From assembly GCF_000306965.1 (NCBI RefSeq), contig NZ_JH976434.1, forward strand, positions 1,083,807 to 1,147,806: 64,000 nt of DNA. Reading direction: 5' to 3'. The notes under the pieces were generated by a model that saw nothing but the letters and a program-made list of their open reading frames with translations, searched no databases and was not told the origin of the DNA. This document shows, piece by piece, positions 21,975-37,053 of the stretch. Positions within the stretch are counted from its first letter, which is position 1. Every line of letters starts with the position of its first letter. Made by a program: the position numbers and the translations under genes. This DNA is from Amphibacillus jilinensis Y1. Lineage in GTDB: Bacteria > Bacillota > Bacilli > Bacillales > Amphibacillaceae.

Positions 21975-22015
21975 TTACCAATTAGCCGGACTTGAATGCC
22001 TACAGTAGAATGATA

Positions 22016-22654
22016 TCAGCAACCAATAAAATAATTAATAAACTCAGAAACACGATTAAATGAGATATGTGGCTCTATCGAAAATGCAGAGGTTTGATAA
22101 TCCGGTAACCATTGAACACCCACTGTAAGAACATTTGCTTGAATGCCTGCGTACATATCTGCATCACTATCCCCAATAAACATTGCTTCTTTATGTTGTA
22201 ATTGTAATATAGATAACGCCTTATTTATCCCTTCTGGATTTGGTTTCGGTTCAATGACATCATCACCTGTTATAATAACATCAAAGATATTTTCCATTTG
22301 AAGTGCTTCTAAAGAAATATCCAAACTCCTTTTTGCTTTTCCAGTCACTATTCCTAATTTAAAACCTCTTTCTTTTAAAAGCTTTATTAAATTAACAATG
22401 TCATTATTAGGCTCGACTAACGCATGATGATGTTCTGCATATTTTTCATAATACCATTCAATTGCCTGCTCTTTATTAGCATTTAATAGGTTTTCTTTTA
22501 TAATGCCTGTTTCAGACGGACCAAACATCGCCTTAACGGCTTCAGGAGAAAGGTCTTTATTATCAAATTTTTGAAAAACATTTTGAAAAGCATAAAAACA
22601 AAGGGGTAAAGTATTCGCTAACGTTCCATCAAAATCAAAAATAATTGCTTTCAT
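22016..22654 (-). CDS. HAD hydrolase, PpaX/phosphoglycolate phosphatase-like
   Basis: The 212-residue protein has DFDGTLANT (motif I, residues 7-15), IVTGKAK (II), EPKPNPEG (III) and FIGDSDADM (IV), with an alpha-helical cap between I and II. This is the layout of PpaX/Gph phosphatases. AAGGGAG precedes the ATG. It stands alone between relics and the iron importer. Substrate unknown. Confidence 0.88.
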   Translation of the reverse strand: MKAIIFDFDGTLANTLPLCFYAFQNVFQKFDNKDLSPEAVKAMFGPSETGIIKENLLNANKEQAIEWYYEKYAEHHHALVEPNNDIVNLIKLLKERGFKLGIVTGKAKRSLDISLEALQMENIFDVIITGDDVIEPKPNPEGINKALSILQLQHKEAMFIGDSDADMYAGIQANVLTVGVQWLPDYQTSAFSIEPHISFNRVSEFINYFIGC

Positions 22655-22765
22655 AACAGACGCTCCCTTAAAATTTGTCTTCCTCTTTCTCCCAACATTA
22701 TCAAAATTATATTCAAAACTGGGGGCATTCTCGATAAAACGAACCTTTAATAATTAAACATCTAT

Positions 22766-24451
22766 CTAATATTTTTTTAACAAATACCTTAGCGGAATAA
22801 TGGATATTAGTATAATAATTAAAGCCGCCGGCGCCGCTAAATAGTAAAACGATTCATTGGCTTCTACATAGACTCTGACCGCTAACGTATCAAAACCTGG
22901 GGGGCGTAGCATAAGTGTTGCCGGCAGCTCTTTGATCGAACTCACAAAGACAAGCGCTCCACCTGCCAATACCCCTGGCAAAATCGAGGGTAGAATCACT
23001 TTAATCATAACTTTCCAAGGGGGGTGTCCTAAACTTCGTGCCGCTTCATCAATACGAGGTGATACAAGGCTTAACGATGCTTCTCCGGCTTGCATTGCCT
23101 GTGGTAAAAAACGGATAACCAGGGCAATAGCCACCATATAAAACGTATTATATAAAGCAGGCAGATGGTTATTAAAGACAAAGATCATCCCTAAAGCAAC
23201 AATAACACCCGGTAGCGCATAGCCTGCGTAACTTAACTTATCTATTGAGCTTGATATGACAGATGGGTATCTTGATTTCAAATAAATAATTGGCATAGAA
23301 AGTACCATACACAGTAAAGAAGCAAATAAAGATACGCGCAAACTGTTCCAAGCAAATCCAAAGAAGCGTGCATCTAGTGCACCCCTACCTATTCCAATAG
23401 CAGACCAGTAAACAAGCACAATTATCGGTAATACCACCGAAACAAAGAAAATAACACAAACATAAATAAGTGCTGGTATTTTCCACTTACCAAGTGATAA
23501 AATATCAGGTTCTTTAAAAGTATTGGCTGTTTGGTAATACTTACTCTTCCTCCTTGTTTTCACCTCTACCCATAGAATAACAATCGTTAGCAACATAAGG
23601 ACTAAGCTTAAGATAGAGGCCGAAGCCGTGTCAAAACTTGCTCGTTGAAAATAAATAGCTGCTGTAAATGTAACATAGCGCATCATTGCAATGACACCAA
23701 AGTCAGATAAGACATATAAAGCGATGAGGATAGCTCCCGCACCAATTGCCGGTCGCAAAAAAGGTAAGTTAACCTTCCAAAAGATTTGTCTCGTATTCAT
23801 CCCCTGCGAGCGAGCAATTTCTTCAAAGTTACGATTCATCTTGCGCAGCGAAGCACTTGCTATTAAGAATACATAAGGATATGTAAACATGGTTAATACA
23901 AAAAACACACCCCAAAAAGAATAGATATCTATCGGATACTCGCCAAACATATTTACTAACCAGGATACCTCTCGCCAAGCATTTTGCACCCAACCACTTG
24001 GTCCAAGGACAATAATATATGTCATCGCTCCTACATAGGGTGGAATAACTAATGGGAGTGCCAACAGCCACTGCCATATTTTCCGACCAGGTATATCCGT
24101 ACGCACAACAATCCAAGATAATGTGACACCAATCAAGACAGCACACAAAGTAACCGCAACGGTTAGCGAGAACGTATTCAATAAAAGTTGTGGAATCCGA
24201 TCATCTAGTAGACGCCTCCAGCGATCAACACCCGCGAATAATGATTGCCAGATAACATAAATGATTGGTATAGACATTATGAGTCCAGTTAACAAGCCAA
24301 GTAAAAACAATACTTTACCGGGCGGGTTTCCATGCCAACTGTCCATCCACTTTCTCCTTAAGAAACGGAGAACGGCTAGAGAAGTATCTTCTCCAGCCTT
24401 GGCATTGTTATCATTATTTAATTGGTGATAATTTTGATCGTCTTCACTCAT
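22766..24451 (-). CDS. fbpB: Ferric-iron ABC transporter permease (two fused membrane domains)
   Basis: The 561-residue protein holds two homologous binding-protein-dependent permease domains with about 12 helices. The ATPase-contact EAA loops are visible at FEEIARSQGMNTRQIFWKVNLPF and IDEAARSLGHPPWKVMIKVI. This fused architecture is typical of FbpB/AfuB/SfuB Fe(III) importers. AGGAGAG precedes the ATG. It follows the binding-protein gene by 37 bp on the same transcript. Confidence 0.92.
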   Translation of the reverse strand: MSEDDQNYHQLNNDNNAKAGEDTSLAVLRFLRRKWMDSWHGNPPGKVLFLLGLLTGLIMSIPIIYVIWQSLFAGVDRWRRLLDDRIPQLLLNTFSLTVAVTLCAVLIGVTLSWIVVRTDIPGRKIWQWLLALPLVIPPYVGAMTYIIVLGPSGWVQNAWREVSWLVNMFGEYPIDIYSFWGVFFVLTMFTYPYVFLIASASLRKMNRNFEEIARSQGMNTRQIFWKVNLPFLRPAIGAGAILIALYVLSDFGVIAMMRYVTFTAAIYFQRASFDTASASILSLVLMLLTIVILWVEVKTRRKSKYYQTANTFKEPDILSLGKWKIPALIYVCVIFFVSVVLPIIVLVYWSAIGIGRGALDARFFGFAWNSLRVSLFASLLCMVLSMPIIYLKSRYPSVISSSIDKLSYAGYALPGVIVALGMIFVFNNHLPALYNTFYMVAIALVIRFLPQAMQAGEASLSLVSPRIDEAARSLGHPPWKVMIKVILPSILPGVLAGGALVFVSSIKELPATLMLRPPGFDTLAVRVYVEANESFYYLAAPAALIIILISIIPLRYLLKKY

Positions 24452-24488
24452 ATATACTCTCTCCTAAGCCGCAAAACCAAAATCGAAG

Positions 24489-25517
24489 TTACCTCAATTC
24501 AAGGTCTAAACCAGATTGTTCAATAAGTTCTTTCGTATCTTCAAAGTATTTCCCGAGATCTTTTAACGGCATTTGTTGAACTTTTAAATCTGCAAATCTA
24601 ACTGCATGTTCATATGGAGGCTCTAAATCAGCATTGATAGGGATTTCTAAAGACTCTCCAACAAATTCTAATTGATTTTCTGGTAAAAGTAACCACTCAA
24701 TAAATGCTTTGGCATCCTCTTCATTCGGCGCACCGTTTACAAGGCCCACACCTGCAGCATTAGCAATAACGCCCATATCCCCTTCTCCTTGATCAGGATA
24801 AATGAAACCAACGTTATTATTGTTCGGTTCTTCTAACTGTTGGTGATAGTAGTAGTTGTTTACTAAACCAAATGGATGCTCACCTGCACCAACGGCCTGC
24901 CGAATGTCACCATGACCACTGTAGATGCCACCTGCATTATCTTTAATGGCTTCGACCCACTCAGCTGTTCTTTCATCTCCCCACTCATTACGCAAAGCAG
25001 AGACATTACCAATCATACCGCCATTGCCACCGCGAGTAATAGCAAATTGCCCCTCAAATTCTGCATCCATTAATGCTTCCATCGTTTTTGGCATTTCCTC
25101 TTCAGTGATCATATCTTTATTGTAAATGAAACCACGGGATCTTGCTGATATAGCAATCCAAGAATTGTCATCTGCACGATATGGCGCATCGATGGTTTCA
25201 ACACCTTCTCCATCAAAGCTTGCTAATAAGTCTTCCATACGTAAATATTCTAATGCACCAATATCATTTGAAATAAAAATATCAGCTTGCACATTACCCG
25301 TTTCTTCTTTTAATTGGAGTGCATCTGCTTCATGTAAAGTTCTAACCGTTATCCCTGTTTCTTCAGAAAATTTATCAAGTAACGGTTGTACAAATCTTTC
25401 GTTACGGCTTGAGTAAACGACAAGCTCGTCTTCATCCCCTTGACCACATGCAGTTACTAAGATTACTAACAACATTAACGATGCTATAAACATCAAAGAT
25501 TTAATTGATTTCTTCAT
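24489..25517 (-). CDS. fbpA: Ferric-iron-binding lipoprotein of the ABC importer
   Basis: The 342-residue protein starts at the ATG at 25517 after GAGGGG. A lipoprotein signal ends in the lipobox LVTACG. The mature part begins ELVVYSSRNERF, the usual opening of AfuA/FbpA proteins, and contains FGLVNNYYYHQQL, in which tandem tyrosines bind Fe(III) in the family. The promoter region has two Fur-like boxes. The permease gene follows. Confidence 0.92.
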   Translation of the reverse strand: MKKSIKSLMFIASLMLLVILVTACGQGDEDELVVYSSRNERFVQPLLDKFSEETGITVRTLHEADALQLKEETGNVQADIFISNDIGALEYLRMEDLLASFDGEGVETIDAPYRADDNSWIAISARSRGFIYNKDMITEEEMPKTMEALMDAEFEGQFAITRGGNGGMIGNVSALRNEWGDERTAEWVEAIKDNAGGIYSGHGDIRQAVGAGEHPFGLVNNYYYHQQLEEPNNNNVGFIYPDQGEGDMGVIANAAGVGLVNGAPNEEDAKAFIEWLLLPENQLEFVGESLEIPINADLEPPYEHAVRFADLKVQQMPLKDLGKYFEDTKELIEQSGLDLELR

Positions 25518-25559
25518 GGCTATGTTTCCCCTCATTAAATATATTTTACTGATCGACAA

Positions 25560-25619
25560 TGACATTCATTCTCATTTAAAAACTGTGCTTAGTTTATCTT
25601 GAATGATAATCGTTGTCAA
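25560..25619 (-). promoter_or_regulatory. fbpA promoter with two Fur-like boxes
   Basis: On the reverse strand TTGACA (25614-25619) and TAAACT (25591-25596) are 17 bp apart. TGATAATCGTTGTCA (25604-25618) overlaps the -35 and spacer and matches the 7-1-7 Fur pattern at 12 of 14 positions. A second box, TGACATTCATTCTCA (25560-25574), lies just downstream. Iron-replete Fur would repress the transcript. Confidence 0.7.
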
Positions 25620-25724
25620 TAAGGTTTTGGTCTTTTCGTTTCTAACCCCTTACATGCTTAAAGTTAAGGAAATGACACTTCTCTATGTGAATTTCGATTG
25701 AAATCGATTCATTTTATTTTTGAA

Positions 25725-25791
25725 AAAAGCGCGGCTTTCTTCATATGATTACACCTTTTATATTGATAAGGTGCGAAGAAAGCCATGCACT
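25725..25791 (-). terminator. Terminator of the fbpC transcript
   Basis: GGCTTTCTTC pairs perfectly with GAAGAAAGCC. A nested CACCTT/AAGGTG stem sits inside and, on the reverse strand, a T run follows. It lies just after the fbpC stop, so the ATPase gene is a separate transcript from fbpAB. Confidence 0.8.
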
Positions 25792-25811
25792 TATAAGATA
25801 ATTATTTAATT

Positions 25812-26867
25812 TTAATTAACTAGGGCAACCAATTCAGGCGTTATATTAAATGTAACAGCACGACCGATTTCAATCTCTTGTTCAACCGGTGCATAGATAA
25901 CCATTGGTTGATTAGAATGATCACCTGATTGTAATCGAACATGAAGTTCTTGGTATTCACCACTGTATGTAGCGCGTTCAACTATACCAGAGTAACGGCC
26001 ATATTCCGCAAGGCGACAACCTTCTGGGCGAATAGACACGACAACATTTTCCAGTTCTTTATTTGTTTGTTGAGGTACACAAACGCGACCAAAATGCGTC
26101 TCAACGTGCTTCAAGTCTGGACATAACCTTCCAGATACTAAGTTGGTTTTCCCAACAAATTGAGCAACAAAACAATTAACAGGGCAACGATAAATCTCTT
26201 TAGGCGATGCAATTTGTTGAATAATTCCTTCATTCATGACGACAACACGATCAGATACTGAAAACGCGTCTTTCTGATCATGGGTCACAATAATTGCAGT
26301 TGCGTTAGCTTTTCTAAGGATATTCGTGACATCCAAACGCATCTTTTCTCTTAGTCCTGCATCTAAATTGCTAAACGGCTCATCCATTAAGATAACTTTG
26401 GGATTGGGTGCTAATGCACGCGCTAATGCAACCCGTTGCTGCTGACCTCCAGATAGTTCATTCGGTAAACGGGTACCAAAACCAACTAAACCAACTAACT
26501 CAAGGACTTCACGAACACGTTTTTTCTTATCTCGAAGTTTCCATTTATTTAAGCCAAACATTATATTTTTTTCAATTGTTAAAAATGGAAATAGGGCATA
26601 ATCTTGAAACACCATGCCTATTCCCCTTTTTTCAGAGGGTAAAGAGCGACGATCATCACAAACGATTTCGTCACCAATTCGAATGCTGCCACCTGTAGGC
26701 TTTTCAAACCCTGCTAACATTCTGAGTGTTGTTGTTTTACCACAACCACTCGGTCCTAATAAAGTTATAATTTCACCCTCTGATATTTCAAGGGTTAATT
26801 GATCGACTGCAGGTGTAGCTGCTCGATTATAATACTTCGTTACGTGATCCAATTGAATATAACTCAT
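25812..26867 (-). CDS. fbpC: Ferric-iron ABC transporter ATPase
   Basis: The 351-residue ATPase has Walker A GPSGCGKT (38-45), signature LSGGQQQR, Walker B VILMDEPFSNLD, H-loop IVTHDQ and a C-terminal TOBE-like regulatory domain (about 245-350), as in FbpC/AfuC. GGGGA precedes the ATG. It lies directly upstream of fbpAB with its own terminator and a separate Fur-like box (near 26904-26918). Confidence 0.92.
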   Translation of the reverse strand: MSYIQLDHVTKYYNRAATPAVDQLTLEISEGEIITLLGPSGCGKTTTLRMLAGFEKPTGGSIRIGDEIVCDDRRSLPSEKRGIGMVFQDYALFPFLTIEKNIMFGLNKWKLRDKKKRVREVLELVGLVGFGTRLPNELSGGQQQRVALARALAPNPKVILMDEPFSNLDAGLREKMRLDVTNILRKANATAIIVTHDQKDAFSVSDRVVVMNEGIIQQIASPKEIYRCPVNCFVAQFVGKTNLVSGRLCPDLKHVETHFGRVCVPQQTNKELENVVVSIRPEGCRLAEYGRYSGIVERATYSGEYQELHVRLQSGDHSNQPMVIYAPVEQEIEIGRAVTFNITPELVALVN

Positions 26868-26903
26868 AATTAAGCAATCCCCTTTGTTTTTTCATCGATT
26901 GAA

Positions 26904-26918
26904 TGAGAATGAGATTCA
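26904..26918. promoter_or_regulatory. Fur-like box before fbpC
   Basis: TGAGAATGAGATTCA partly fits the 7-1-7 Fur pattern (about 10 of 14 positions) and lies 37 bp upstream of the fbpC start. Confidence 0.4.
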
Positions 26919-27090
26919 CTATCAAATTTTAGCATAGGCAAGCCTTTAGTGCAATAACGTACTCCAGAGTTTTACCGTGTACCGTGATACAGAAGAACTC
27001 ATTTAAGCGCACACTAACAATGACGCGCTCCGCTAAACTAAGCGATCGAATATTCTGAGAGTATCTTTCTTTGAACGATTTTTCAATTTA

Positions 27091-27119
27091 TTGTAGCCAC
27101 CTATTATACAGACTATGCT
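27091..27119 (+). promoter_or_regulatory. Candidate promoter of the AAA/radical-SAM operon
   Basis: TTGTAG (27091-27096) and TATGCT (27114-27119) are spaced by exactly 17 bp, about 50 bp before the first gene. The rest of 26919-27090 shows no recognised element. Confidence 0.5.
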
Positions 27120-27167
27120 AAAATAAATTTAATTAATAAATTGTGAAGATAAGGGAGCGGTCATTAT

Positions 27168-28820
27168 ATGCGTAAAGAAACATTCACTGAGAAGCTTGCA
27201 AATTATTTAAGAGCTCGATTTTCGTTTCTTTCTATATCAACATGGGAAGAAGATCGTGTCATACGTGACATTCAGAACATTTGTTCCAATGCTCAGTTAA
27301 TTAAAACCGTACGTAAAGTATACACGTGGACAGTTACAGAAGGATTAACAGATGAAGACCACCTAACAATTAATAATACCACTCAACCGTTGCGTGCATT
27401 AGAACAAATTGAACGTGTGGAAGAGCCCTCAGTATTCATTCTAAAAGATTTCCATATTTATCTGGGAGGAGAAAATAGACAACCTGATTATACCATTATT
27501 CGCCGAATACGAGACTTGGTTTCTGTTATTGAGAATAGTCCCTTTCATAAAAATGTTATTTTTATATCACCAAGCTTTCCAATTCCTATGGAGTTACAGA
27601 AGGACATTATGATCGTTGATTATGGACTCCCAACCTATATTGAAATTAAAAAAGTGCTCCACCAAATGATTCAAATGAACAAAGGAAATGATAGGATCAC
27701 AGTTGACTTGGATCAAGCTGATGAAGAAAAGTTAGTTAAAGCTGCCCTTGGACTAACCATGCAGGAAGCCGAAAATGCCTTTGCCTTATCTATGGTTACT
27801 GATGGGAGATTGGATATCAACAGTGTAGATCACGTTTTAGAAGAAAAGCAGCAGATCATTCAAAAGAATGGTTTGTTAGAATATATCCCCCACGAACCTA
27901 GCATGAAGGATGTTGGTGGACTCGAAAACATCAAACGCTGGCTTTCGCGCAGGAACAATTCTTGGATGGAGTCAGCATCTGAGTATGGACTACCTGCTCC
28001 AAAGGGGATCTTACTAACTGGGATACCTGGGTGTGGGAAAAGTCTAATTGCAAAAGCTGTCAGTTCATTATGGAAACTCCCTTTACTGAAGCTAGATATA
28101 GGGAAAATTTATTCTGGTCTAGTCGGAAGTAGTGAGGAGAACATGCGAGAAGCTATTCATACAGCAGAAGCAATTTCCCCCTCTATTTTATGGATTGATG
28201 AACTTGAAAAAGGCCTTGGAGGGGCGAATGGATCGGGTGATAGCGGAACCTCGTCTCGTATTTTCGGTACGTTACTTACTTGGATGCAAGAAAAAACAAA
28301 TCCTGTTTTCGTTGTTGCGACAGCAAATAATATTCAGTCCCTGCCCCCCGAATTGCTTCGAAAGGGCCGATTTGATGAAATATTTTTTGTTGATTTACCT
28401 ACTAAAAGAGAGAGAGAGGCTATCTTTAAAATTCATCTCACTAAACGGCTTACTTCAGAGAAAGTTAGCGGTGATTTAACAGCTGATGATGCTCTATTCT
28501 CCCATTTTTCTTCTTTATCTGAAGGCTTTATTGGCGCAGAGATTGAGCAAGCTATTATTTCTGGTTTATTTGAAGCATACGCTGAACAACGACATTTAAG
28601 AGTGGCGGATATTGAAAAAGCTATTGAGCAAACTGTACCGCTCTCCATCACTCAAGCAGAACAGATTCGTTCTTTAAGAGAATGGGCGAATGTTAGAGCA
28701 GTTGCTGCAACACCAAAAGATGATCGTGCAGATTATGGTAGTGATGCAGAAGAAAAGCAACTTCCAAGCCCTTCAAATGATATCCATACCTCTCGAGGTG
28801 GTCGAACACTTGATTTTTAA
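27168..28820 (+). CDS. Ycf46-like AAA+ ATPase
   Basis: The 550-residue protein heads a five-gene operon. Residues 1-235 resemble the degenerate P-loop-like N-terminal domain of Ycf46 proteins. Residues 245-480 are a full AAA+ module: Walker A GIPGCGKS (285-292), Walker B LWIDE (341-345), sensor 1 at ATANN (384-388), KGRFDE (399-404) and C-terminal lid helices. The tail (residues 510-550) is acidic and disordered, ending GGRTLDF, nearly the same as the end of the fourth gene. Ycf46 proteins are common in cyanobacteria and plastids, where their role is poorly defined. An unfoldase or remodelling role for partners in the operon is inferred. Confidence 0.87.
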   Translation: MRKETFTEKLANYLRARFSFLSISTWEEDRVIRDIQNICSNAQLIKTVRKVYTWTVTEGLTDEDHLTINNTTQPLRALEQIERVEEPSVFILKDFHIYLGGENRQPDYTIIRRIRDLVSVIENSPFHKNVIFISPSFPIPMELQKDIMIVDYGLPTYIEIKKVLHQMIQMNKGNDRITVDLDQADEEKLVKAALGLTMQEAENAFALSMVTDGRLDINSVDHVLEEKQQIIQKNGLLEYIPHEPSMKDVGGLENIKRWLSRRNNSWMESASEYGLPAPKGILLTGIPGCGKSLIAKAVSSLWKLPLLKLDIGKIYSGLVGSSEENMREAIHTAEAISPSILWIDELEKGLGGANGSGDSGTSSRIFGTLLTWMQEKTNPVFVVATANNIQSLPPELLRKGRFDEIFFVDLPTKREREAIFKIHLTKRLTSEKVSGDLTADDALFSHFSSLSEGFIGAEIEQAIISGLFEAYAEQRHLRVADIEKAIEQTVPLSITQAEQIRSLREWANVRAVAATPKDDRADYGSDAEEKQLPSPSNDIHTSRGGRTLDF

Positions 28821-28843
28821 TTTTCAAAAAGGAGAATCCATCA

Positions 28844-29302
28844 ATGAGTTTATCACTTGTATTAGTTCCAATAGTTATCGGCATCAGCTCTGGCATTAAA
28901 CTCGCTATGTCAGAAAAAGTAGAAGATGGTGCTTTTTATAAACTTCAAACAAATATGAAAGACAACGCGCTACTAGCAGAAACACTTCGAAACTATGGTT
29001 GCCAGGTCACCATGGATGAAGAACAGCTACAATCGTCTCTTGGAGATACACAACTTGGTTTTCAATTAGAAGAAGATGGTACATTTAGTGCGGTATTCTC
29101 AGCTGAAGTGGTCACCAAAGATGCTAAAGAATTGATGACTGATCTTCAAGAAGAATATAGCAGATTGGTCCAAAAACAGACCTATGAAAAATTATTACAG
29201 CGCGCTTCAAAAAAAGGACTTCTACTTGAATCTGAGAATACTAATCAAGAAGATACTATTGTCTTAACCTTTCAAGTAAAGGAGCAACGCAACTATGAGT
29301 AA
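28844..29302 (+). CDS. DUF1257 (Ycf35-like) protein with hydrophobic N-terminus
   Basis: The 152-residue protein starts after AAAGGAG, 23 bp from the ATPase stop. Residues 2-22 are hydrophobic (LSLVLVPIVIGISSGIKLAM) and may form a membrane anchor. The remainder follows the DUF1257 pattern: a short alpha/beta unit (LLAETLRNYGCQV), a central IGF-like strand (QLGFQLEEDGTF), and a C-terminal helix pair (LLQRASKKGLLLE). The assignment rests on pattern and on the Ycf46/DUF2997 context, so it is moderately sure. It overlaps the next gene by 8 bp. Confidence 0.65.
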   Translation: MSLSLVLVPIVIGISSGIKLAMSEKVEDGAFYKLQTNMKDNALLAETLRNYGCQVTMDEEQLQSSLGDTQLGFQLEEDGTFSAVFSAEVVTKDAKELMTDLQEEYSRLVQKQTYEKLLQRASKKGLLLESENTNQEDTIVLTFQVKEQRNYE

Positions 29303-29504
29303 AAAAATCCAGATTGAGATTACAGCAAATGGAGAGGTCAGAGCAAAAACACTAGGAATTAAAGGAGAAGCGTGCTTAAATTACGTAGAACTTATTGAAG
29401 AACTCGTCGATGCAGAGACCATTGACTCTGCCTTTACAGAAGAATATCAAGAAACAGCTATTCACAGCTATTCACAGCAACAGCATCACTTGAAAAAGGA
29501 GTAG
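29295..29504 (+). CDS. DUF2997-family small protein
   Basis: The 69-residue protein begins inside the end of the previous gene (ATGAGTAA overlap). It shows the DUF2997 outline: a beta hairpin (KKIQIEITANGEVRAKTLGIKGEACLN) that ends with Gly-x-Ala-Cys, then a helix (YVELIEELVD). The C-terminal 20 residues are Gln- and His-rich. Function of the family is unknown; it normally co-occurs with DUF1257 and Ycf46-like proteins, as here. Confidence 0.75.
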   Translation: MSKKIQIEITANGEVRAKTLGIKGEACLNYVELIEELVDAETIDSAFTEEYQETAIHSYSQQQHHLKKE

Positions 29505-29510
29505 ATAAAC

Positions 29511-30254
29511 ATGAAAAATGCCATTACACCAATGGGAGTCAAATGGGAGTTATTAAAGTCCTTATGGATACTTTGGTTAGTCGTTCCCTTTGGTTTCACC
29601 AGTTATATTAGCTTTTTTTATATTAGTATGCGCGTAAAAAAACGCTCATGGTTTATAGCAGGCCTTATATATTCTTTTATTTTCATCCAATTTGTATTAG
29701 TTGATGAATTTAATCTGACCGATGGCTTTATTGGTGGCATATCCACAATGCTCTTGTTCGTAGGCTGGATCGCCGCATGGGTACATGCACTTAATGCAAG
29801 AAAACAATATTTACCGATGCTCCTGGAGAAAATTCAGTTAGACGCAAGAAGTATTCCTCAACCACAGGATGCGTTTGAAATGTCTCCTCCGGTAGTCTCT
29901 GCAACAGCAGTAGCACCATTAGATACTGAATTAACCAATGAAAACCTAACCGATCATCAAAGGCAACCTGAGACATTTGAGAAAAAAGTAAATATGAACA
30001 TAGCGACCATTGAGGAAATAGCTTCAGTTCCTTCGATCGGAAACATTCTAGCTAGTCAAATTGTTGAAGTTCGCAAGCAGGAAGGGCCTTTTCATGACTT
30101 TGCGGATTTTGTAGAATTGGTGGCTATTAAACCGCATATTTTAGCTAAAGCAAAACCTTTTATGACTTTTGCAATTGACGATTTCGATAAGGGGAACGAT
30201 AAACAACAACATAGTCAATCCAAACATTCTGCCGGAAGGGTTGTTGATTATTAA
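29511..30254 (+). CDS. Membrane protein with C-terminal helix-hairpin-helix
   Basis: The 247-residue protein starts after AAAGGAG, which overlaps the previous stop. Three or four TM helices occupy residues 14-100. A Pro/Thr-rich linker follows, then a ComEA-type helix-hairpin-helix (about 160-222; NMNIATIEEIASVPSIGNILA). The tail after residue 225 is disordered and ends SAGRVVDY, echoing GGRTLDF at the end of the AAA+ ATPase. The HhH could bind DNA or a protein partner at the membrane. The stop and next start overlap (TAATG). Confidence 0.75.
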   Translation: MKNAITPMGVKWELLKSLWILWLVVPFGFTSYISFFYISMRVKKRSWFIAGLIYSFIFIQFVLVDEFNLTDGFIGGISTMLLFVGWIAAWVHALNARKQYLPMLLEKIQLDARSIPQPQDAFEMSPPVVSATAVAPLDTELTNENLTDHQRQPETFEKKVNMNIATIEEIASVPSIGNILASQIVEVRKQEGPFHDFADFVELVAIKPHILAKAKPFMTFAIDDFDKGNDKQQHSQSKHSAGRVVDY

Positions 30255-30856
30255 TGCACTTACAGCTTCATCGATTTTTACCTTCAAGCTTAGCAGAAGG
30301 GCCTGGAAAACGAGCCTCGATTTGGGTTCAAGGATGTCCGATCCATTGTAAAGGGTGCGGCGTTCCTTGGACCTGGAACCCAAAGCTAGGGACTGCCTCA
30401 GATGTAGATACGCTATGGGAGCAAATCTTAAAAAGTAAAGAAGTGAATGACATTGAAGGCATTACCTTTTTAGGTGGAGAACCTTTTGAACAGGCTGAAC
30501 CACTGGCTGTTCTAGCGGAGCGTGCACAAAACATCGATCTTAGCATTATGACTTTTAGTGGCTACTATTACGAAGAGCTTAAAACATTAAATAAACCCGG
30601 CTGGAAAGCACTTCTTGCACATACCGATATTTTTCTAGACGGTCCTTTCGAGTTAGACAAACCAGATCCTATCCGACCATGGATAGGATCAACCAACCAA
30701 GGTATTCATTTCTTAACAAACCGATACACGCATTTAAAAGATGAGCTAGAGAAGATCCCTGACAGGTTAGAAATTTATATAAAAAAAGATGGCACAATTG
30801 AAGCCAATGGAATGGTTCCATCGGAATCTTGGAAACAACTATTTAATGGCATATAA
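30254..30856 (+). CDS. NrdG-like radical-SAM enzyme
   Basis: The 200-residue protein has the 4Fe-4S motif CPIHCKGC (CxxxCxxC, residues 28-35), the GGEPF motif and NrdG-like sequence spacing throughout. NrdG activates anaerobic ribonucleotide reductase, but no nrdD is near; the host operon suggests a different target. Translation is coupled by TAATG to the membrane-protein gene. In such an operon it could modify a peptide or activate a glycyl-radical partner (inference). It is the last gene before a strong hairpin. Confidence 0.85.
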   Translation: MHLQLHRFLPSSLAEGPGKRASIWVQGCPIHCKGCGVPWTWNPKLGTASDVDTLWEQILKSKEVNDIEGITFLGGEPFEQAEPLAVLAERAQNIDLSIMTFSGYYYEELKTLNKPGWKALLAHTDIFLDGPFELDKPDPIRPWIGSTNQGIHFLTNRYTHLKDELEKIPDRLEIYIKKDGTIEANGMVPSESWKQLFNGI

Positions 30857-30868
30857 AACAAACCCCTT

Positions 30869-30903
30869 CAATCAGTGGGATTTCTGTTCGCGCCCACTGA
30901 TTG
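30869..30903 (+). terminator. Terminator-like hairpin of the AAA/radical-SAM operon
   Basis: CAATCAGTGGG (30869-30879) pairs perfectly with CCCACTGATTG (30893-30903), 12 bp after the radical-SAM stop. The T run is short. Confidence 0.75.
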
Positions 30904-31324
30904 TTAGTTGAGTGAAGCTATGCTCAACATCATTCATTCCTCAGCTACTTAGTTAGCTTTTTTGGAAATGTTGAAATGACTGCAAGTCGTTGTATAATGC
31001 TTGCTTTTCTTATTGACCGTCATCCCCTCACATTTCTACGACTACAAACTGACTCTATCATTCAACTCACCTTAAATGATTTTAAGCAATCTAAATAACA
31101 ACAATTACTGACAGTAATTCCTCACTTCTTTTTGCTTCAGTATTATTCCCTATCACTTGATACTGCGAAATGTATAGCATTCCTTACTACCACCAAAGAA
31201 TGGGTTCACTTTTTGTTGTAACCGCCCACAAAATTCAAACCTAACATAGATTGAAAGCGTTATCTATAGTGTTTATGATTAAGTTGTAAGTGATCTAGCA
31301 ACAGAGAATGAGAGGAGGATGAGC
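30904..31324. other. Intergenic region before the ascorbate-type PTS operon
   Basis: No gene is seen in this stretch. Its last 75 bp hold the promoter and cre of the PTS operon. Confidence 0.5.
31251..31279 (+). promoter_or_regulatory. Promoter and cre box of the ascorbate-type PTS operon
   Basis: TTGAAA (31251-31256) and TATGAT (31274-31279) are spaced exactly 17 bp. The cre-like TGAAAGCGTTATCT (31252-31265) covers the -35, so CcpA would repress directly. Confidence 0.7.
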
Positions 31325-31780
31325 GTGCTAAGTAGCATGATAGACAAAGCATTCATTCAACTAAACGTCAAAGCAACCGATTGGCAGGATGCAATTAAAG
31401 TATCTGCACAGCCTTTGTTAAAGGCAGGGAAAATTGCAGAGTCCTACATTGAAAAAATGATTGATATCGCACTTGAGACAGGTCCATATATCGTGATTGC
31501 GAAAAATGTCGCATTACCTCATGCCCCACCAGATGCCGGGGTTTATCAAACAGCGATGAGTATCACTGTTCTAGAGCATGATGTCCATTTTGGTAACCCG
31601 GATAACGATCCAGTTAAATATTTATTCTGTCTCAGTGCTACGGATAGCAATAGTCATTTAGAAGCACTTGCCGAACTAGTTGATTTGCTTGAAGATCAGA
31701 ATTTTTTCCAGTTGTTGAACCAAGCTCGTAATCGCACTGAAGTGCTCGATTACGTGATTAACAAAACCAAAAATAGATAG
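31325..31780 (+). CDS. PTS EIIA, ascorbate/fructose-mannitol type
   Basis: The 151-residue protein is taken from the GTG at 31325, six bases after AGGAGG; the ATG at 31319 abuts that site. It carries the phospho-histidine region NVALPHAPPDAGV and a FGNPDNDPVKYLFCLS strand, typical of the EIIA domain of SgaA/UlaC proteins. It passes phosphate from HPr to the next gene's EIIB. The same fold recurs as the EIIA-like end of the regulator at 34969. Confidence 0.87.
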   Translation: MLSSMIDKAFIQLNVKATDWQDAIKVSAQPLLKAGKIAESYIEKMIDIALETGPYIVIAKNVALPHAPPDAGVYQTAMSITVLEHDVHFGNPDNDPVKYLFCLSATDSNSHLEALAELVDLLEDQNFFQLLNQARNRTEVLDYVINKTKNR

Positions 31781-31791
31781 GAGAGTCTTAT

Positions 31792-32076
31792 ATGTACAAA
31801 GCTTTAGTTGCCTGCCGAGCAGGTGTCGGTTCCAGTCTTATGCTAAAAATAAAAACCCAACAGGTTATAAAAGAAGAAAGCTTTCCAATCGAATTAGAGC
31901 ATGCCTCCCTTGATGCCGTATCAAGCTTTAATGGCGAACTCTTGATCACACTAGTGGATGTCGCTAATGAACTTAAAGCAAGTGGCATTAAAAAAGACAT
32001 CATCGGGATAACCAGCATTACCAATAAAGCAGAAATTAAAGAAAAACTAGCCGCTTACATCGAAAAAAACACTTAA
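31792..32076 (+). CDS. PTS EIIB, ascorbate (SgaB/UlaB) type
   Basis: The 94-residue protein starts after AGGAGAG. The phosphorylated cysteine lies in ACRAGVGSSLMLK (C9), the SgaB/UlaB P-loop. It sits between the EIIA and EIIC genes with short gaps. Confidence 0.88.
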   Translation: MYKALVACRAGVGSSLMLKIKTQQVIKEESFPIELEHASLDAVSSFNGELLITLVDVANELKASGIKKDIIGITSITNKAEIKEKLAAYIEKNT

Positions 32077-32095
32077 TGAGAAGGAGAGAATTGAA

Positions 32096-33355
32096 TTGGA
32101 TTTTATTGTTAGCTTATTAAGTAATCCAAGTATACTTTTAGGGATATTTGCATTTATTGGATTAATCGCCCAAGAAAAAAATGGTTCTGAAGTGCTCTCA
32201 GGTACGTTTAAAACCATTATTGGCTTTCTGATCTTTAGTGTCGGTGCAAGTACAATTACCGGTACACTGCAAAACTTTAACACCCTATTTCAAGACGGCT
32301 TTAACATACCTGGTGTGATCGCATCTCCAGAAGCAGCGACAGCACTTGCGCAAACACAGTATGGCTTCGTCGTTTCAAGCACGTTAATTCTTGGGTTTTT
32401 AATGAATCTCGTATTTGCGAAATTCACACCACTTAAGAATATTCTTTTCCACGGTGGACACATCTTGTTCTTTGCTTGTGTGTTAGCCTTGATCTTAAAA
32501 TCGTATGGCTTTCAGGATATGACAGCGATTATCATTGGTGGAACAATTTTGGGGTTTGCATCAGCCGCCTTACCAAAGCTTTGTCAGCCATTTATGCGTA
32601 AGATCACAGGTGGGGACGATATTGCCATTGGGCACTTTAATATGATTGGTTATGCCTTTTCAGGGCTAATCGGCAAAACTTTTGCTAAACATGCCGATAA
32701 GACAACGGAAGATATTAAGTTTCCAAAATGGTTATCCTTCTTTAGAGATTTTTTAATGGGCATCTCCGTCATCATGTTAATACTATTTTATATTGCAACT
32801 TTCGCTGCGGGTCGTGCGGTTACGAGTGAACTGGCAGGAAATGTACATTGGCTTGTCTTTCCACTTATCCAAGCCTTCACCTTCGCTGCAGGTATGTCCA
32901 TCTTAATGTCTGGGGTAAGAATGTTTTTAGCTGAGATCACGGCAGCCTTTGTCTCTATTTCGGAGCGATTCATTCCAAATTCGAAGCCTGCATTAGATGT
33001 CCCGACGATTTTCCCATTTGCACCTACCGCTGTTTTAGTCGGCTTTTTGACTTCTTATAGTGCTGGCTTAATCGCCATCGCTGTAATGGTAGCGGTTGGC
33101 TTTCCGGTGATTATTATTCCTGCTGCGCACATCTGCTTTTTCTCTGGTGGTACAGCTGGCGTATTTGGTAATTCAACTGGAGGTTGGCGTGGCGCAATAG
33201 CAGGTTCATTTATTATGGGGTTATTACTTGCCTTTTTACCCGTATTACTTTACCCATTATTTGCAGATATGGGCGTTGCCGGGTCAACCTTCCCAAACGT
33301 CGACTATAACATTTTCGGCATACTGTTAGATTGGATACTCGGTCTGTTCCTTTAA
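32096..33355 (+). CDS. PTS EIIC permease, ascorbate (UlaA/SgaT) type
   Basis: The 419-residue membrane protein uses a TTG start seven bases after AAGGAGAG. It shows the UlaA-family features ILFHGGHILFF, LQNFNTLFQD and conserved helices SVGAST and GFLTSYSAG. The family imports L-ascorbate or related sugar acids. The accompanying aldolases do not match the ascorbate pathway, so the substrate is a different carbohydrate acid (inference). Confidence 0.88.
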   Translation: MDFIVSLLSNPSILLGIFAFIGLIAQEKNGSEVLSGTFKTIIGFLIFSVGASTITGTLQNFNTLFQDGFNIPGVIASPEAATALAQTQYGFVVSSTLILGFLMNLVFAKFTPLKNILFHGGHILFFACVLALILKSYGFQDMTAIIIGGTILGFASAALPKLCQPFMRKITGGDDIAIGHFNMIGYAFSGLIGKTFAKHADKTTEDIKFPKWLSFFRDFLMGISVIMLILFYIATFAAGRAVTSELAGNVHWLVFPLIQAFTFAAGMSILMSGVRMFLAEITAAFVSISERFIPNSKPALDVPTIFPFAPTAVLVGFLTSYSAGLIAIAVMVAVGFPVIIIPAAHICFFSGGTAGVFGNSTGGWRGAIAGSFIMGLLLAFLPVLLYPLFADMGVAGSTFPNVDYNIFGILLDWILGLFL

Positions 33356-33394
33356 AACAAGGGACTACTATTATTAAAAAGGCGGTTTTAGACG

Positions 33395-34288
33395 ATGAAT
33401 TGCACTGGTATTATTACAGCAATGGTCACACCTCTTGATCAAGAAGAGCAAATTGACCATGACAAAACGAAACAATTAATTGATCATCTTATTAATAAAC
33501 AAGTCCATGGTTTATTCATTTTAGGGACAAACGGGGAGGGACATGCTCTAAATAGAGATACAAAATGCACATTTACTAAGCTAGTTATGACACATGTTAA
33601 TAGCAGAGTTCCCGTATATGTAGGTGTGGGTGAGAATTCAACGAAGGAAACGGTCATCATGGCAAAACAAGCAGAACAGCTTGGCGCAGATGCCCTATCA
33701 GTCATTACGCCCTACTTTATGCCACCAACGCAAACGGAACTTATTCATCATTACACAACAGTAGCACAAGCGGTGCAAATTCCGATTGTCCTTTATAATA
33801 TGCCGAGTAAAACAGGGGTTAACATTGAGCCTGAAACAGTCAAGGTCCTTACTGAGATCAATAACATCATTGCCATCAAGGATAGTAGTGGCGATCTCGA
33901 TAACATGGGAAAATATTTAGAAGCTACCAAAAAATGTACCGACTTTCATGTCCTATCAGGCTCAGACGCAAACATATTGAAGCTACTCCAAATGGGCGGG
34001 GCTGGGGCGGTTTCTGCTACGTCCAACCTACTAACTGACGCTGTTTTGAATATCTTTCAATATTGGCATAAAGCTGACTTGGAAAAAGCCTCTCATTATC
34101 AAGCGTCTATTGAACCCTTGCGTACCTTGTTAAAGCGAGGTACGGTTCCCAGTGTACTAAAAGCGACACTGAATGCATCAGGTTTACCAGTTGGTCAGAC
34201 GTGCAAGCCCGTGCTGATGCCGAACGATGCCGTGCTAAATGCTATTGAAAACATGCTTGAATATTACCGAGACCATGCGATACTGTAA
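33395..34288 (+). CDS. DapA-superfamily aldolase
   Basis: The 297-residue class I aldolase has the pyruvate-binding GTNGEG (43-49), Y134 in LYNMPSKTG and Schiff-base lysine K162 in IAIKDSSGD. These place it among DHDPS, sialate lyase and keto-deoxy-sugar-acid aldolases. Its place in a PTS operon favours cleavage of a 2-keto-3-deoxy acid rather than lysine synthesis. Start after AAGGCGG. Confidence 0.85.
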   Translation: MNCTGIITAMVTPLDQEEQIDHDKTKQLIDHLINKQVHGLFILGTNGEGHALNRDTKCTFTKLVMTHVNSRVPVYVGVGENSTKETVIMAKQAEQLGADALSVITPYFMPPTQTELIHHYTTVAQAVQIPIVLYNMPSKTGVNIEPETVKVLTEINNIIAIKDSSGDLDNMGKYLEATKKCTDFHVLSGSDANILKLLQMGGAGAVSATSNLLTDAVLNIFQYWHKADLEKASHYQASIEPLRTLLKRGTVPSVLKATLNASGLPVGQTCKPVLMPNDAVLNAIENMLEYYRDHAIL

Positions 34289-34302
34289 AGGAGGAATTGA
34301 AA

Positions 34303-34938
34303 TTGAACCGTGCTGAAGTGGTTACCAAGATTAATCAAACGGGTATTATGGCAATTGTCAGAGTTCGTACTCACGCACGTGCTAAAGAGATCGCCCAAGC
34401 GTGCTTAGATGGTGGTGTGAACATTCTAGAGATCAGTTATACACACGCAAATGCTGGTGATATTATCGCTTATTTAAAAGAGGAATTCAATCATAGTCCA
34501 TTAATTATTGGCGCAGGAACTGTGCTTGATAGTGAGACGGCTCGACACGCCATCCTGTCAGGCGCACAATTTGTTATTGCACCTAACTTCAAAAAAGAGG
34601 TGGCGTTGCTGTGCAATCGCTATCAGATCCCGTATGCACCTGGGTGCACCTCTACGAGTGAGATGGTTGAAGCACTTGAGTATGGGGCATCACATATTAA
34701 AGTTTTTCCAATTGCCGAGTATTTCGGGCCATCATTTATTAAAACCATTAAAACCCCGCTCCCATATGCACCTTTGCTCTCGTCGGGTGGTGTCACACTT
34801 GAAAACTGTCACACGTGGTTTGAAACAGGGGTTGAATGCTTAGGTGTCGGGTCACTATTAACAAAGGGTAGCTATGATGATATTTTAACGCATGCCCGCA
34901 CGTTAATCGAAAAGCGTGATCTGGCGCGATCATTATAA
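34303..34938 (+). CDS. eda: 2-keto-3-deoxy-6-phosphogluconate aldolase-like (Eda)
   Basis: The 211-residue enzyme is started at the TTG at 34303, eight bases after AAGGAGG; the TTG at 34297 is too close. Family marks: AIVRVRTHARA, ILEISYT, IGAGTVLDSE, FVIAPNF and the Schiff-base region HIKVFPIAEYFG. Eda splits KDPG-type acids into pyruvate and an aldehyde phosphate. The gene starts 14 bp after the DapA-like aldolase stop. Two keto-acid aldolases in one operon is unusual. Confidence 0.88.
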   Translation: MNRAEVVTKINQTGIMAIVRVRTHARAKEIAQACLDGGVNILEISYTHANAGDIIAYLKEEFNHSPLIIGAGTVLDSETARHAILSGAQFVIAPNFKKEVALLCNRYQIPYAPGCTSTSEMVEALEYGASHIKVFPIAEYFGPSFIKTIKTPLPYAPLLSSGGVTLENCHTWFETGVECLGVGSLLTKGSYDDILTHARTLIEKRDLARSL

Positions 34939-34968
34939 CGAAGCTTAGCGCACTGGAGGTGAAGGCGA

Positions 34969-37053
34969 TTGTTAGATGAACGATCCATGCAAATCATTAA
35001 AATTTTATTAGCATCAACTTATGTGTTGAAACAAGAATTAATGCAAAAGTGTAAATTGACAAAGCGACAGCTTGAATACAGTATGGATAAAATTAATGAT
35101 TGGGTAAAAAGTCAACACCTTCAGCCGATTCGCTTTAACGGTGATCAAGTCAGCGTCGACTCTGAAACCTATGCATTTCTTTTGAAAATGTTAAATACCA
35201 AGAAGAAAACCGTGATTGCGAACTACTTTCTTAGCAATCAAGAGCGGGTTGACTTTTTATATTTAATGATTTTCTCCCATTCTGGCTATCTATCTGTCGA
35301 GCATTTTATCTCTGGACTTCAGGTGAGTAAGTCGACTGTCTTTAAAGACATAAATGCTTTAAAAGCCTTGTTAACCGACTACGGAATAGCGCTTGAATAT
35401 AACAGAAAGTCGGGCTACTATTTATCAGGTGAGGAAAAAACCATTCGTCACTACATGCTTTGCATTGTTTTGCGCTATTTTTCTGAAGAAACGAACAGAC
35501 GATTTTTAGACTTTTTCATTGAGAGCAATCACATGATAAGTTTTCCTGAGATGCTGGAGGCTATCGTAGAGCTGTCAAAAAGCGTACAGCTCACTTTTGT
35601 AGAAAATCGAATGATTGAATTTACTTACATTTATATTTTTTTACGCGAGCGATTAAAGGATGACTCCACATTCATTCCGATAGCATTAGCAAACTATCAC
35701 GAAATCAAAGATACACCAGAATACACGTTTGCTAAGCAGCTCTTAAAGCATTCTGATATTGAAAAAGAGGAAGCCGTCCTCTATATTTGTTCCTGTCTAC
35801 TCGGGTTCTCCACTGGTGTTAAGGAAGCCCATAGTAAGAAACAACTTGAAATTTTACAGCTTGTTGAGCGAATGCTTGATCGCTTTGAAGCCTTATCAGG
35901 TATTGTGGTGGAAAATCATCAATTTGTCTGTTCACAAATTTATATACACTTTCAGCCGACTTATTATCGCTTGTTGTTTAATCTACCGGTGATTAATCCA
36001 TTGAAGGAAGAAATCAGGAGGAAATATAATAGTCTGTTTTTGCTTGTCAAAGCTTCACTCAAGACGATCAGTGACCATTTAAATATGCCTATTCCAGATG
36101 ATGAAATTGCGTTTCTAACATTGCATTTCGCTTCAATCATTGATAATTTCGAACAAAAATATCATCGTAAAAAAACGGCCATTATTATTTGTCCAAATGG
36201 AATTGGCAGCTCAATGCTACTGTATTCACAACTAAAGGCAATTTTTCCAGAGATTTTTTTCTTAGAGCCGATCGACTATTTAAAGCTTGATGATGTGTTG
36301 GATCAAGTTGATGTTATCTTTACCACCTCTACTGAGGGACACTACTTCAATGTGAAAAAGCCATTTTTCTTTGTTAGTCCAATCATGACGGATATTGATG
36401 CCATGCGCTTAAAACAGGAAGTATACTATAAATTACATCAAATAGCCTATCATTATCCGAATTATACACATGTATTTAATATTATTAAAAGATACGTGCC
36501 TGAAGCAGATTTAGAAGCAGCTGAAGATGAGCTAAAGCAGTCATTTATTGAGACACCTATTGTTGACAAACCAAGCAAAGAAAAATTGACACTGACTGAC
36601 CTCATTCAACCCGACTACTTGCAGCTTGATGTCTTAGCTAAAAACAAGTGGGAGGCTGTTGAAAAGGCAGCGCAACCCCTTCTGCAATCAGGAACAATTA
36701 CGGAAGCTTATATCGGAAAAATGATGGAATCCTTAGCGTTAGACAGTTCCTACCTGGTCATCGCACCAAATATCGCCATGCCCCATGCTAAATCGGAATA
36801 CGGTGTCAATAAGCCCTGTATGAGCTTAACGGTATTGGCGGAACCAGTGATCTTTGGCAATGAAAAGAATGATCCCGTCAACTATATTTTTTGCCTAGCT
36901 GCTAAAGACAAGGAATCTCACTTAACCGCCATGTCGTCATTTGTGCAACTCATTTCCTCTGAAGAATTTATTAGCACCTTAGCAACCGCACACTCGACAG
37001 AAGAGGTTTTACAATATATTAAAAATTTCGAAGCAACGCTTGAGCTCTATTAA
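34969..37053 (+). CDS. PRD-containing PTS-controlled transcription activator
   Basis: The 694-residue protein starts at a TTG eight bases after GGAGGT. Domains: N-terminal winged helices (1-150, with HFISGLQVSKSTVFKDINALK), two PRDs (about 180-390), a EIIB-like domain with the P-loop CPNGIGSSMLL (about 405-415) and a C-terminal EIIA with the phospho-histidine in IAMPHAKSEYG. It is a MtlR/LicR-type activator of its own operon, controlled through phosphorylation by the PTS. Its EIIA end is closely similar to the stand-alone EIIA at 31325. Confidence 0.9.
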   Translation: MLDERSMQIIKILLASTYVLKQELMQKCKLTKRQLEYSMDKINDWVKSQHLQPIRFNGDQVSVDSETYAFLLKMLNTKKKTVIANYFLSNQERVDFLYLMIFSHSGYLSVEHFISGLQVSKSTVFKDINALKALLTDYGIALEYNRKSGYYLSGEEKTIRHYMLCIVLRYFSEETNRRFLDFFIESNHMISFPEMLEAIVELSKSVQLTFVENRMIEFTYIYIFLRERLKDDSTFIPIALANYHEIKDTPEYTFAKQLLKHSDIEKEEAVLYICSCLLGFSTGVKEAHSKKQLEILQLVERMLDRFEALSGIVVENHQFVCSQIYIHFQPTYYRLLFNLPVINPLKEEIRRKYNSLFLLVKASLKTISDHLNMPIPDDEIAFLTLHFASIIDNFEQKYHRKKTAIIICPNGIGSSMLLYSQLKAIFPEIFFLEPIDYLKLDDVLDQVDVIFTTSTEGHYFNVKKPFFFVSPIMTDIDAMRLKQEVYYKLHQIAYHYPNYTHVFNIIKRYVPEADLEAAEDELKQSFIETPIVDKPSKEKLTLTDLIQPDYLQLDVLAKNKWEAVEKAAQPLLQSGTITEAYIGKMMESLALDSSYLVIAPNIAMPHAKSEYGVNKPCMSLTVLAEPVIFGNEKNDPVNYIFCLAAKDKESHLTAMSSFVQLISSEEFISTLATAHSTEEVLQYIKNFEATLELY

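Follow-up and report, generated by a model that had tools for sequence, protein, structure and literature searches.

A C-terminal motif shared by a Ycf46-like AAA+ ATPase and the helix-hairpin-helix membrane protein encoded with it in a recurrent five-gene cassette

Background

Proteins of the DUF1257 and DUF2997 families and the Ycf46-type ATPases are conserved orphans found in cyanobacteria, plastids, plasmids and phages. The HbYX motif is common to ring ATPases and unrelated proteins. It is described as a short C-terminal motif of certain proteasome activators that bind one receptor (PMC8907193). Cyanobacteria possess a gene cluster comprising a DUF2997 gene, the DUF1257 gene ycf35 and fed7, and a fed7 mutant is reported to be susceptible to iron limitation (PMC4284462). 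Here we analyze a 64,000-nucleotide stretch of the genome of the firmicute Amphibacillus jilinensis Y1 (the window; NCBI RefSeq assembly GCF_000306965.1, contig NZ_JH976434.1, positions 1,083,807 to 1,147,806 of the forward strand), in which a five-gene operon combines members of these families with a membrane protein and a radical S-adenosylmethionine (radical-SAM) protein.

In window coordinates, the operon consists of plus-strand open reading frames (ORFs) for an AAA+ ATPase of 550 amino acids (27168-28820), a DUF1257-like protein of 152 (28844-29302), a DUF2997 protein of 69 (29295-29504), a helix-hairpin-helix (HhH) membrane protein (29511-30254) and an NrdG-like radical-SAM protein of 200 (30254-30856). 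They are separated, in order, by a 23-bp gap, an 8-bp overlap, a 6-bp gap and a one-base TAATG overlap, precisely as had been noted in the original prediction, an earlier reading of the DNA letters alone. That reading considered the function of the set to be unknown, which agrees with the open-licence literature, in whose titles and abstract openings we found no description of the five-gene set, its role or shared tails.

Results

A tail shared by the ATPase and its membrane partner

The ATPase terminates in RGGRTLDF (28794..28817, plus strand) and the HhH protein in GRVVDY (30234..30251, plus strand), ends that constitute a single motif, R-x-[VIL]-[DE]-hydrophobic. When relatives are aligned, RGGRT(I/L)DF is the end of the AAA proteins and a GRxVD(Y/F)-like sequence that of the HhH proteins, in each case behind a variable linker. 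We scanned all six-frame ORFs of at least 35 amino acids with the strict terminal pattern [GE]R.[VIL][DE][FYLIVW], in positions 22001-36000 of the window and in the collected loci (labelled L plus a number) L014, L015 and L022-L113, dropping L025, which repeats L040. The pattern closes 78/92 AAA ORFs and 77/94 HhH-class ORFs, and none of the 84 radical-SAM, 82 DUF2997 and 80 DUF1257 ORFs (0/246 together); among other ORFs it occurs in 10 of 9,110, all ten of them beside cassette genes. The count of tailed partners (putative clients) depends on the pattern, being 77/94 with G or E before the R and 89 once a wider choice of residues, or any residue, is allowed in that place. This sharing of a tail by the ATPase and its partner, which the original prediction missed, is the strongest clue to the function of the cassette.

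The ten other ORFs include proteins of unrelated architecture. In a variant cassette (L028, L030:7475-8107, L032 and L033) the DUF1257 and DUF2997 domains are fused, and the place of the HhH protein is taken by an unrelated tailed protein, by reading a membrane protein, that gives no HhH match, as tested for the L030 protein. L069 codes for tailed TPR proteins together with a tailed protein containing an Mrr nuclease domain, and L078 has the highest count, with seven tailed HhH-class ORFs in one cassette.

Within the tail, G precedes the R in 78/78 AAA tails and the R itself is set by the pattern; otherwise D or E and several terminal hydrophobic residues are admitted. The penultimate D or E is found in all 78 AAA and 89 client tails, as the pattern used for their selection requires. 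The tails use every one of the six Arg codons, and those of the AAA genes every one of the four Gly codons too. As these codons vary freely, selection acts on the protein. A nucleotide-level candidate, conservation of the tail as the Shine-Dalgarno site of the next gene, was rejected on the same variation of synonymous codons and because a Shine-Dalgarno-like string is present in only 48/167 tails.

A search for further tailed proteins in the host genome, with a pattern that leaves out tryptophan ends, found none: it gave 42 matches against 55 for a backward-pattern control, two being the cassette tails and six others, on reading, not gene ends (ORF calling was crude), with 34 matches unread.

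The cassette recurs as a unit

Scanning the genomes of GTDB species with the alignment of AAA proteins recovered at least 80 loci, among them members of Bacillota, Actinomycetota and Gastranaerophilales, an armatimonadote and a planctomycete. We defined a complete neighborhood as at least 4 kb on either side of the AAA gene, which excluded 31 of 92 AAA-match loci. All five families are present in 50/61 complete neighborhoods of close ATPase relatives, a set biased by seeding with this AAA subfamily and by its inclusion of the window, two plasmids and Bacilli loci found via DUF2997. The linkage of the five genes is far beyond chance. The same gene order is seen on plasmids of Paenarthrobacter and Rhodococcus, where gene 2 is annotated as hypothetical and was identified by alignment, and in two more Bacilli genomes (L026, L027). 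Thus, the proposal of a co-inherited unit uniting a membrane-linked AAA protein with a radical-SAM protein stands, and the outcome that would have spoken against it, homologs never linked elsewhere, is excluded by this linkage and by the plasmid copies. Conversely, the description of the set as mainly cyanobacterial and plastid fails, since Bacillota, Actinomycetota, Gastranaerophilales, Armatimonadota and others have the five-gene form, and phages and phage-like plasmids too carry the AAA/DUF1257/DUF2997 core. Overall, the interpretation offered in the original prediction is partly supported.

The distribution at closer range is sporadic: DUF2997 was detected in 0/40 relatives of the host (41 genomes with the host) and in 13/398 genomes of the class, host included. 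In a sister species (G001) the flanks are collinear on both sides, and between them lies a 205-bp frameshifted piece of the AAA gene, 87% identical (window 27420-27624 against L196:9279-9482); a tblastn search at this site detected no trace of the other four genes. The decayed fragment indicates that the common ancestor had at least the AAA gene and, by inference, the whole cassette, which then decayed in G001.

DUF1257 searches of plasmid and phage proteins led nowhere. On the Treponema succinifaciens plasmid pTRESU01 (L016:5333-7488), a related pair of radical-SAM and AAA genes directly precedes an annotated phage baseplate assembly protein V gene, and is possibly part of a contractile injection cluster. 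An IMG/VR contig (L154) holds cassette genes with tailed HhH-class proteins and may be host DNA labelled viral.

Other tail types in distant lineages

A second group, on phage-like plasmids and contigs, combines genes for a radical-SAM protein, a partner, the AAA protein, DUF1257 and DUF2997, in some cases with ThyX. Here D-[IL]-[DE]-hydrophobic is found at the end, or at most two residues from it, in 10/10 partners kept and, by reading, near the end of 8/12 AAA proteins (10/12 if E or Q is allowed first). Sets of this type, with a partner of unknown family, are found in L143-L153, L135 and L136, and in the latter two ThyX follows. Another group, from huge phages, has AAA, DUF1257 and DUF2997 genes and no radical-SAM match in the stretches examined. 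Its AAA proteins have RRRVAP-like ends and two downstream families mostly PRRRV or RRI-like ends, with about six of the 38 listed ends not fitting this type. One of these two families gives weak matches to beta-solenoids or left-handed beta-helices (L174:7813-8832, L170:7522-8592).

Comparing tails with at most 30 sequences per side, AAA and partner ends scored 15.8, 15.7, 13.5 and 13.9 within four lineages and 16.3 and 16.4 between the two lineages that have a motif in common; controls gave 4.2-9.0 when the tails were of different motif types and 5.8-8.4 when internal partner segments were used. In a rank test we asked, among same-strand ORFs within 5 kb, whether the end of the partner family is the closest to that of the AAA protein. 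The partner was best in 47.5/74 loci of the window's cassette type (6.2 expected; 6.5 with an internal AAA segment), 9.5/14 of the phage-like plasmid group (0.6; 1.5), 8/20 of the huge-phage group (1.4; 0) and 2/4 of the variant cassette (0.2; 1).

The five proteins and their surroundings

Families were assigned with Pfam and NCBIfam profiles. The ATPase has an N-terminal region that matches nothing in Pfam and, after it, a single AAA domain (PF00004, 109 bits; residues 281-409), a variable linker and the tail. Its Walker A motif, GIPGCGKS, lies at residues 285-292 (28020..28043, plus strand); G285, P287-S292, D344 and E345 are invariant across 7 aligned relatives, the last two forming an acidic pair.

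The score of the gene 2 product against PF06868 (DUF1257), 18.0 bits, falls below the gathering cut-off of 22.2, even though its positional counterparts in related sets are annotated as DUF1257 and are alignable with it; hence, we call it DUF1257-like. Its N-terminus is hydrophobic by reading, and an alpha/beta fold with one long helix is predicted. The DUF2997 protein scores above the gathering cut-off (PF11211, 49.7 bits against 24.1) and has a conserved GxxC motif. By reading, about three putative membrane stretches lie in the hydrophobic N-terminal half of the HhH protein; they are followed by an HHH_3 domain at residues 157-219 (29979..30167, plus strand; 48.1 bits). Its similarity to ComEA (TIGR01259) is limited to the HhH region and reaches 35.3 bits, under the cut-off of 152.35.

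The untailed radical-SAM protein matches Fer4_12 with 112.7 bits and contains the cluster motif CPIHCKGC (CxxxCxxC; 30335..30358, plus strand), with C28, C32 and C35 invariant across 10 aligned relatives. It also matches the NrdG profile TIGR02491, so that its description as NrdG-like is apt as to profile family and motif, but its 99.8 bits lie below the equivalog cut-off of 126.1. The accompanying statement that nrdD is lacking is false genome-wide: the host has nrdD at G000:C1:643704-645476, followed by its own NrdG-like gene of 157 amino acids. The protein of the operon is therefore an extra paralog, and the notion of a missing NrdD partner as a clue to function was rejected.

Structure models had a mean pLDDT of 84.8 for the DUF1257-like protein and 82.3 for a natural DUF1257-DUF2997 fusion. 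With the former, Foldseek returned no match at an E-value of 0.001 or better. Matches to KA1, BamC and TBP-like folds were near noise, and among KA1, TBP-like and helix-grip folds the best Z-score, 8.8 (5wi2; root-mean-square deviation 2.3 over 75 residues), is close to the range of common fold arrangements. For the modelled fusion, Z-scores reach 10.0 against the N-terminal part of spermine synthase and S-adenosylmethionine decarboxylases, and a match to RnlA has an E-value of 2.6e-4 but a TM-score of 0.25. These model-based fold matches are uninformative and we draw no function from them.

Promoter-like sites number 13 against 13.5 expected and none stands out from chance, so the single promoter formerly proposed lacks support. 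The proposed terminal hairpin fares better as a structure than as a terminator: the 79 bases 3' of gene 5 fold better than shuffled sequences (z -4.39) into two stem-loops, the first of 11 pairs (30869-30903, plus strand), while no terminator is called there on the plus strand. By reading, the neighbors of the operon in the window code for an ABC transporter and a phosphotransferase system (PTS).

Discussion

Within a gene set, two or more proteins with no other relationship have a peptide in common, and its sequence changes from lineage to lineage in both; the most economical interpretation is that it serves for docking. We posit, with a probability of roughly one half, that the cassette codes for an AAA+ remodelling machine that is linked to the membrane and brings its components together through a shared address peptide. 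On this proposal the ATPase and the membrane HhH protein each bear the same C-terminal motif on a variable linker, and a putative receptor within the machine would read this tail as a docking signal, thereby bringing the ATPase ring and its client together at the membrane. Candidate readers are the three untailed proteins and the ATPase; of these, the AAA protein or DUF1257 and DUF2997 as a pair are likeliest. The ATPase might then remodel the client as its cargo, or the client might instead anchor it to the membrane, and a component of the assembly may be modified by the radical-SAM protein. Shared tails also occur where no radical-SAM gene was found; modification is thus unlikely to be the only reason for the tail, though it may act where the enzyme is present: an acidic residue is kept in the tail core of both main radical-SAM branches, while the set of Paenibacillus polymyxa (L018) has the enzyme without such a residue.

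Several observations weigh against this proposal. The HhH profile with which partners were gathered was built from full-length proteins, tails included. One or two residues follow the motif in L112 (GRQIDFGD), L081 and L083 (GRIVDFDL) and an L055 client (KRMVDMQ), indicating that a free C-terminus is not strictly required. In L096 and L107 the AAA protein is tailed or nearly so (GGRPVDA) with no adjoining cassette partner, and DUF2997 was not found in either genome. The AAA protein gp97 of the Mycobacterium phage Catdawg (genus Corndogvirus; L115:3860-5638) ends in KVRVLDL, of the same motif class, and a crude ORF scan makes it the sole tailed gene of that phage. Two membrane proteins on a Paenibacillus polymyxa plasmid (L018) end in RVIHF and RVIRL with the AAA end unmatched, and the Treponema AAA protein ends in RKLEM without a matching neighbor. 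To these misfits can be added the AAA relatives in L103, L113, L020, L021 and L142, which have no such tail, and Sanguibacter (L108), where an AAA protein ending in GGRKVVF is accompanied by a tailed membrane protein (GRRLDL) with DUF1257, DUF2997 and radical-SAM genes not adjoining; in that genome DUF2997 was not found and radical-SAM matches lie elsewhere (best E-value 1.1e-30).

The statistics are likewise two-sided. Outside the window's cassette type, partner families were first spotted by their ends and then gathered by homology, so neither the tail scores nor the rank test was blind. A blind per-locus test, corrected for the number of neighbors, is weak: 28/154 loci pass as against 11 with an internal-AAA-segment control, 20/88 in the window's cassette type, a low power that follows from motifs of only six residues. 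Among 18 loci outside the named groups two pass, one of them (L021) by way of a minus-strand ORF, a match that is probably chance (uncorrected p 0.003). For this reason the pairs seen at one locus each (L156, L158, L159, L163) are no more than suggestive. With correction, L158 and L164 (identical in sequence to L163) pass, L156 and L163 fall narrowly short and L159 fails. A third plasmid set (L137, L138, L141, L116), without DUF1257, DUF2997 or radical-SAM matches, has uncorrected p-values of 0.015-0.07, none of which passes correction; it and the single phage loci ending in RKLS, RKLA or RVIRR are likewise suggestive only. Moreover, related sequences are not independent, and the evidence comes down to some three motif types and a number of isolated cases. 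The rank test adds weight to tail sharing, whereas the blind test and the manner in which families were chosen take some away.

A bolder extension of the docking proposal, to which we lend only tentative credence, holds that the tail is a lineage-specific C-terminal password on Ycf46-like AAA+ machines of bacteria and their phages and on their otherwise unrelated clients, changing in step on both so as to avoid cross-talk between bacterial and phage versions that reside together, and chemically modified in the branches with radical-SAM enzymes as a switch for the machine. Such machines would form a class not described so far.

Among the alternatives is the docking proposal narrowed to the ATPase as the reader: the AAA ring itself would grip the tail as a recognition tag so as to pull on the client, the ATPase's own copy being a pseudo-substrate that would keep the ring inactive as long as no client competes. 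We hold this to be possible but less likely than not. No component other than the AAA protein is present in every set compared, among them L108, L137, L138 and L141, which have no DUF1257, DUF2997 or radical-SAM matches, but the very plasmid set in which it stands without the small proteins offers only the weak matches given above, 0/4 surviving correction.

Somewhat more doubtful is a role in conflict, with the variable membrane proteins as effectors and the AAA and radical-SAM proteins as the sensor of an anti-phage system, an arrangement that would be compatible with the docking mechanism. The sporadic presence of DUF2997, carriage on plasmids, the decayed AAA fragment in the sister species and the variable client domains, including the Mrr nuclease domain, are all in keeping with such a role. 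Against it, phages carry the core too, and in the window the operon's neighbors read as a transporter and a PTS. Among PADLOC models, no one-system set was matched by the five genes, which hit only generic AAA models (IetA, TRIP13) and, weakly, viperin.

Radical-SAM enzymes modify peptides. The tail could accordingly be the substrate of the one encoded here, which would modify a tail residue on both the ATPase and the client, with DUF1257 and DUF2997 helping to present it. The radical-SAM protein and the two small proteins are indeed untailed, the tailed proteins vary in number and architecture as substrates do, and the two main radical-SAM branches have a hydrophobic-[DE]-hydrophobic core in the tail, set against the basic RRRV-type ends of the huge-phage group. 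Nevertheless, we consider this unlikely: AAA and partner ends are also alike in those phage sets without a radical-SAM match in the stretches examined, the Sanguibacter pair keeps tail-like ends with no such gene adjoining, and the P. polymyxa membrane proteins lack the acidic residue in spite of a radical-SAM gene in their set. Furthermore, beyond the R and the G of the AAA side, the tail positions vary.

Finally, the radical-SAM protein could serve anaerobic ribonucleotide reductase as a spare NrdG, in an operon supporting nucleotide or iron-sulphur metabolism. Its profile match, the ThyX genes following two plasmid sets and the adjacency of cyanobacterial DUF2997-ycf35 to the iron-sulphur gene fed7 with its iron-limitation phenotype (PMC4284462) speak for this reading, which is nevertheless very improbable given the score of the protein below the NrdG cut-off and the NrdG-like gene already adjoining nrdD.

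A tail that marks clients makes for a testable scheme, as it names likely interactors among hitherto orphan families and allows clients to be predicted from sequence wherever a genome has the cassette. Should the ATPase prove to read the tail, this would be a new recognition code for AAA+ machines; should the tail be modified, it would represent a new radical-SAM protein modification.

Comparison with known systems

The cassette resembles the cyanobacterial DUF2997-ycf35-fed7 cluster in placing DUF1257 and DUF2997 beside an iron-sulphur protein (PMC4284462). The protein in question is a ferredoxin, Fed7, in the one and a radical-SAM protein in the other. The comparison with Ycf46 covers plasmid-borne cyanobacterial AAA relatives, which are at 35-43% identity among the matches listed. 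Two cyanobacterial plasmids have such a relative near DUF1257 and DUF2997, and the two cyanobacterial plasmid AAA proteins that were read lack the R-x-[VIL]-[DE]-hydrophobic end. The phage AAA family phrog_8638, of unknown function, matches the window ATPase nearly at full length (491.4 bits, residues 2-522/550), but the huge-phage sets, unlike the window, have no radical-SAM match. NrdG shares with the operon protein a profile family and CxxxCxxC motif, the differences being the score and the separate nrdD pair of the host. The anti-phage system IetAS is matched only in the AAA part of IetA (72.8 bits); its partner, a serine protease, is not among the five genes. As for HbYX, the ends LDF and VDY of the window proteins are not hydrophobic-Tyr-X, the motif is another one, the cassette has no proteasome and its receptors are candidates only; what the cassette has in common with it is a C-terminal motif held by non-homologous proteins of one gene set.

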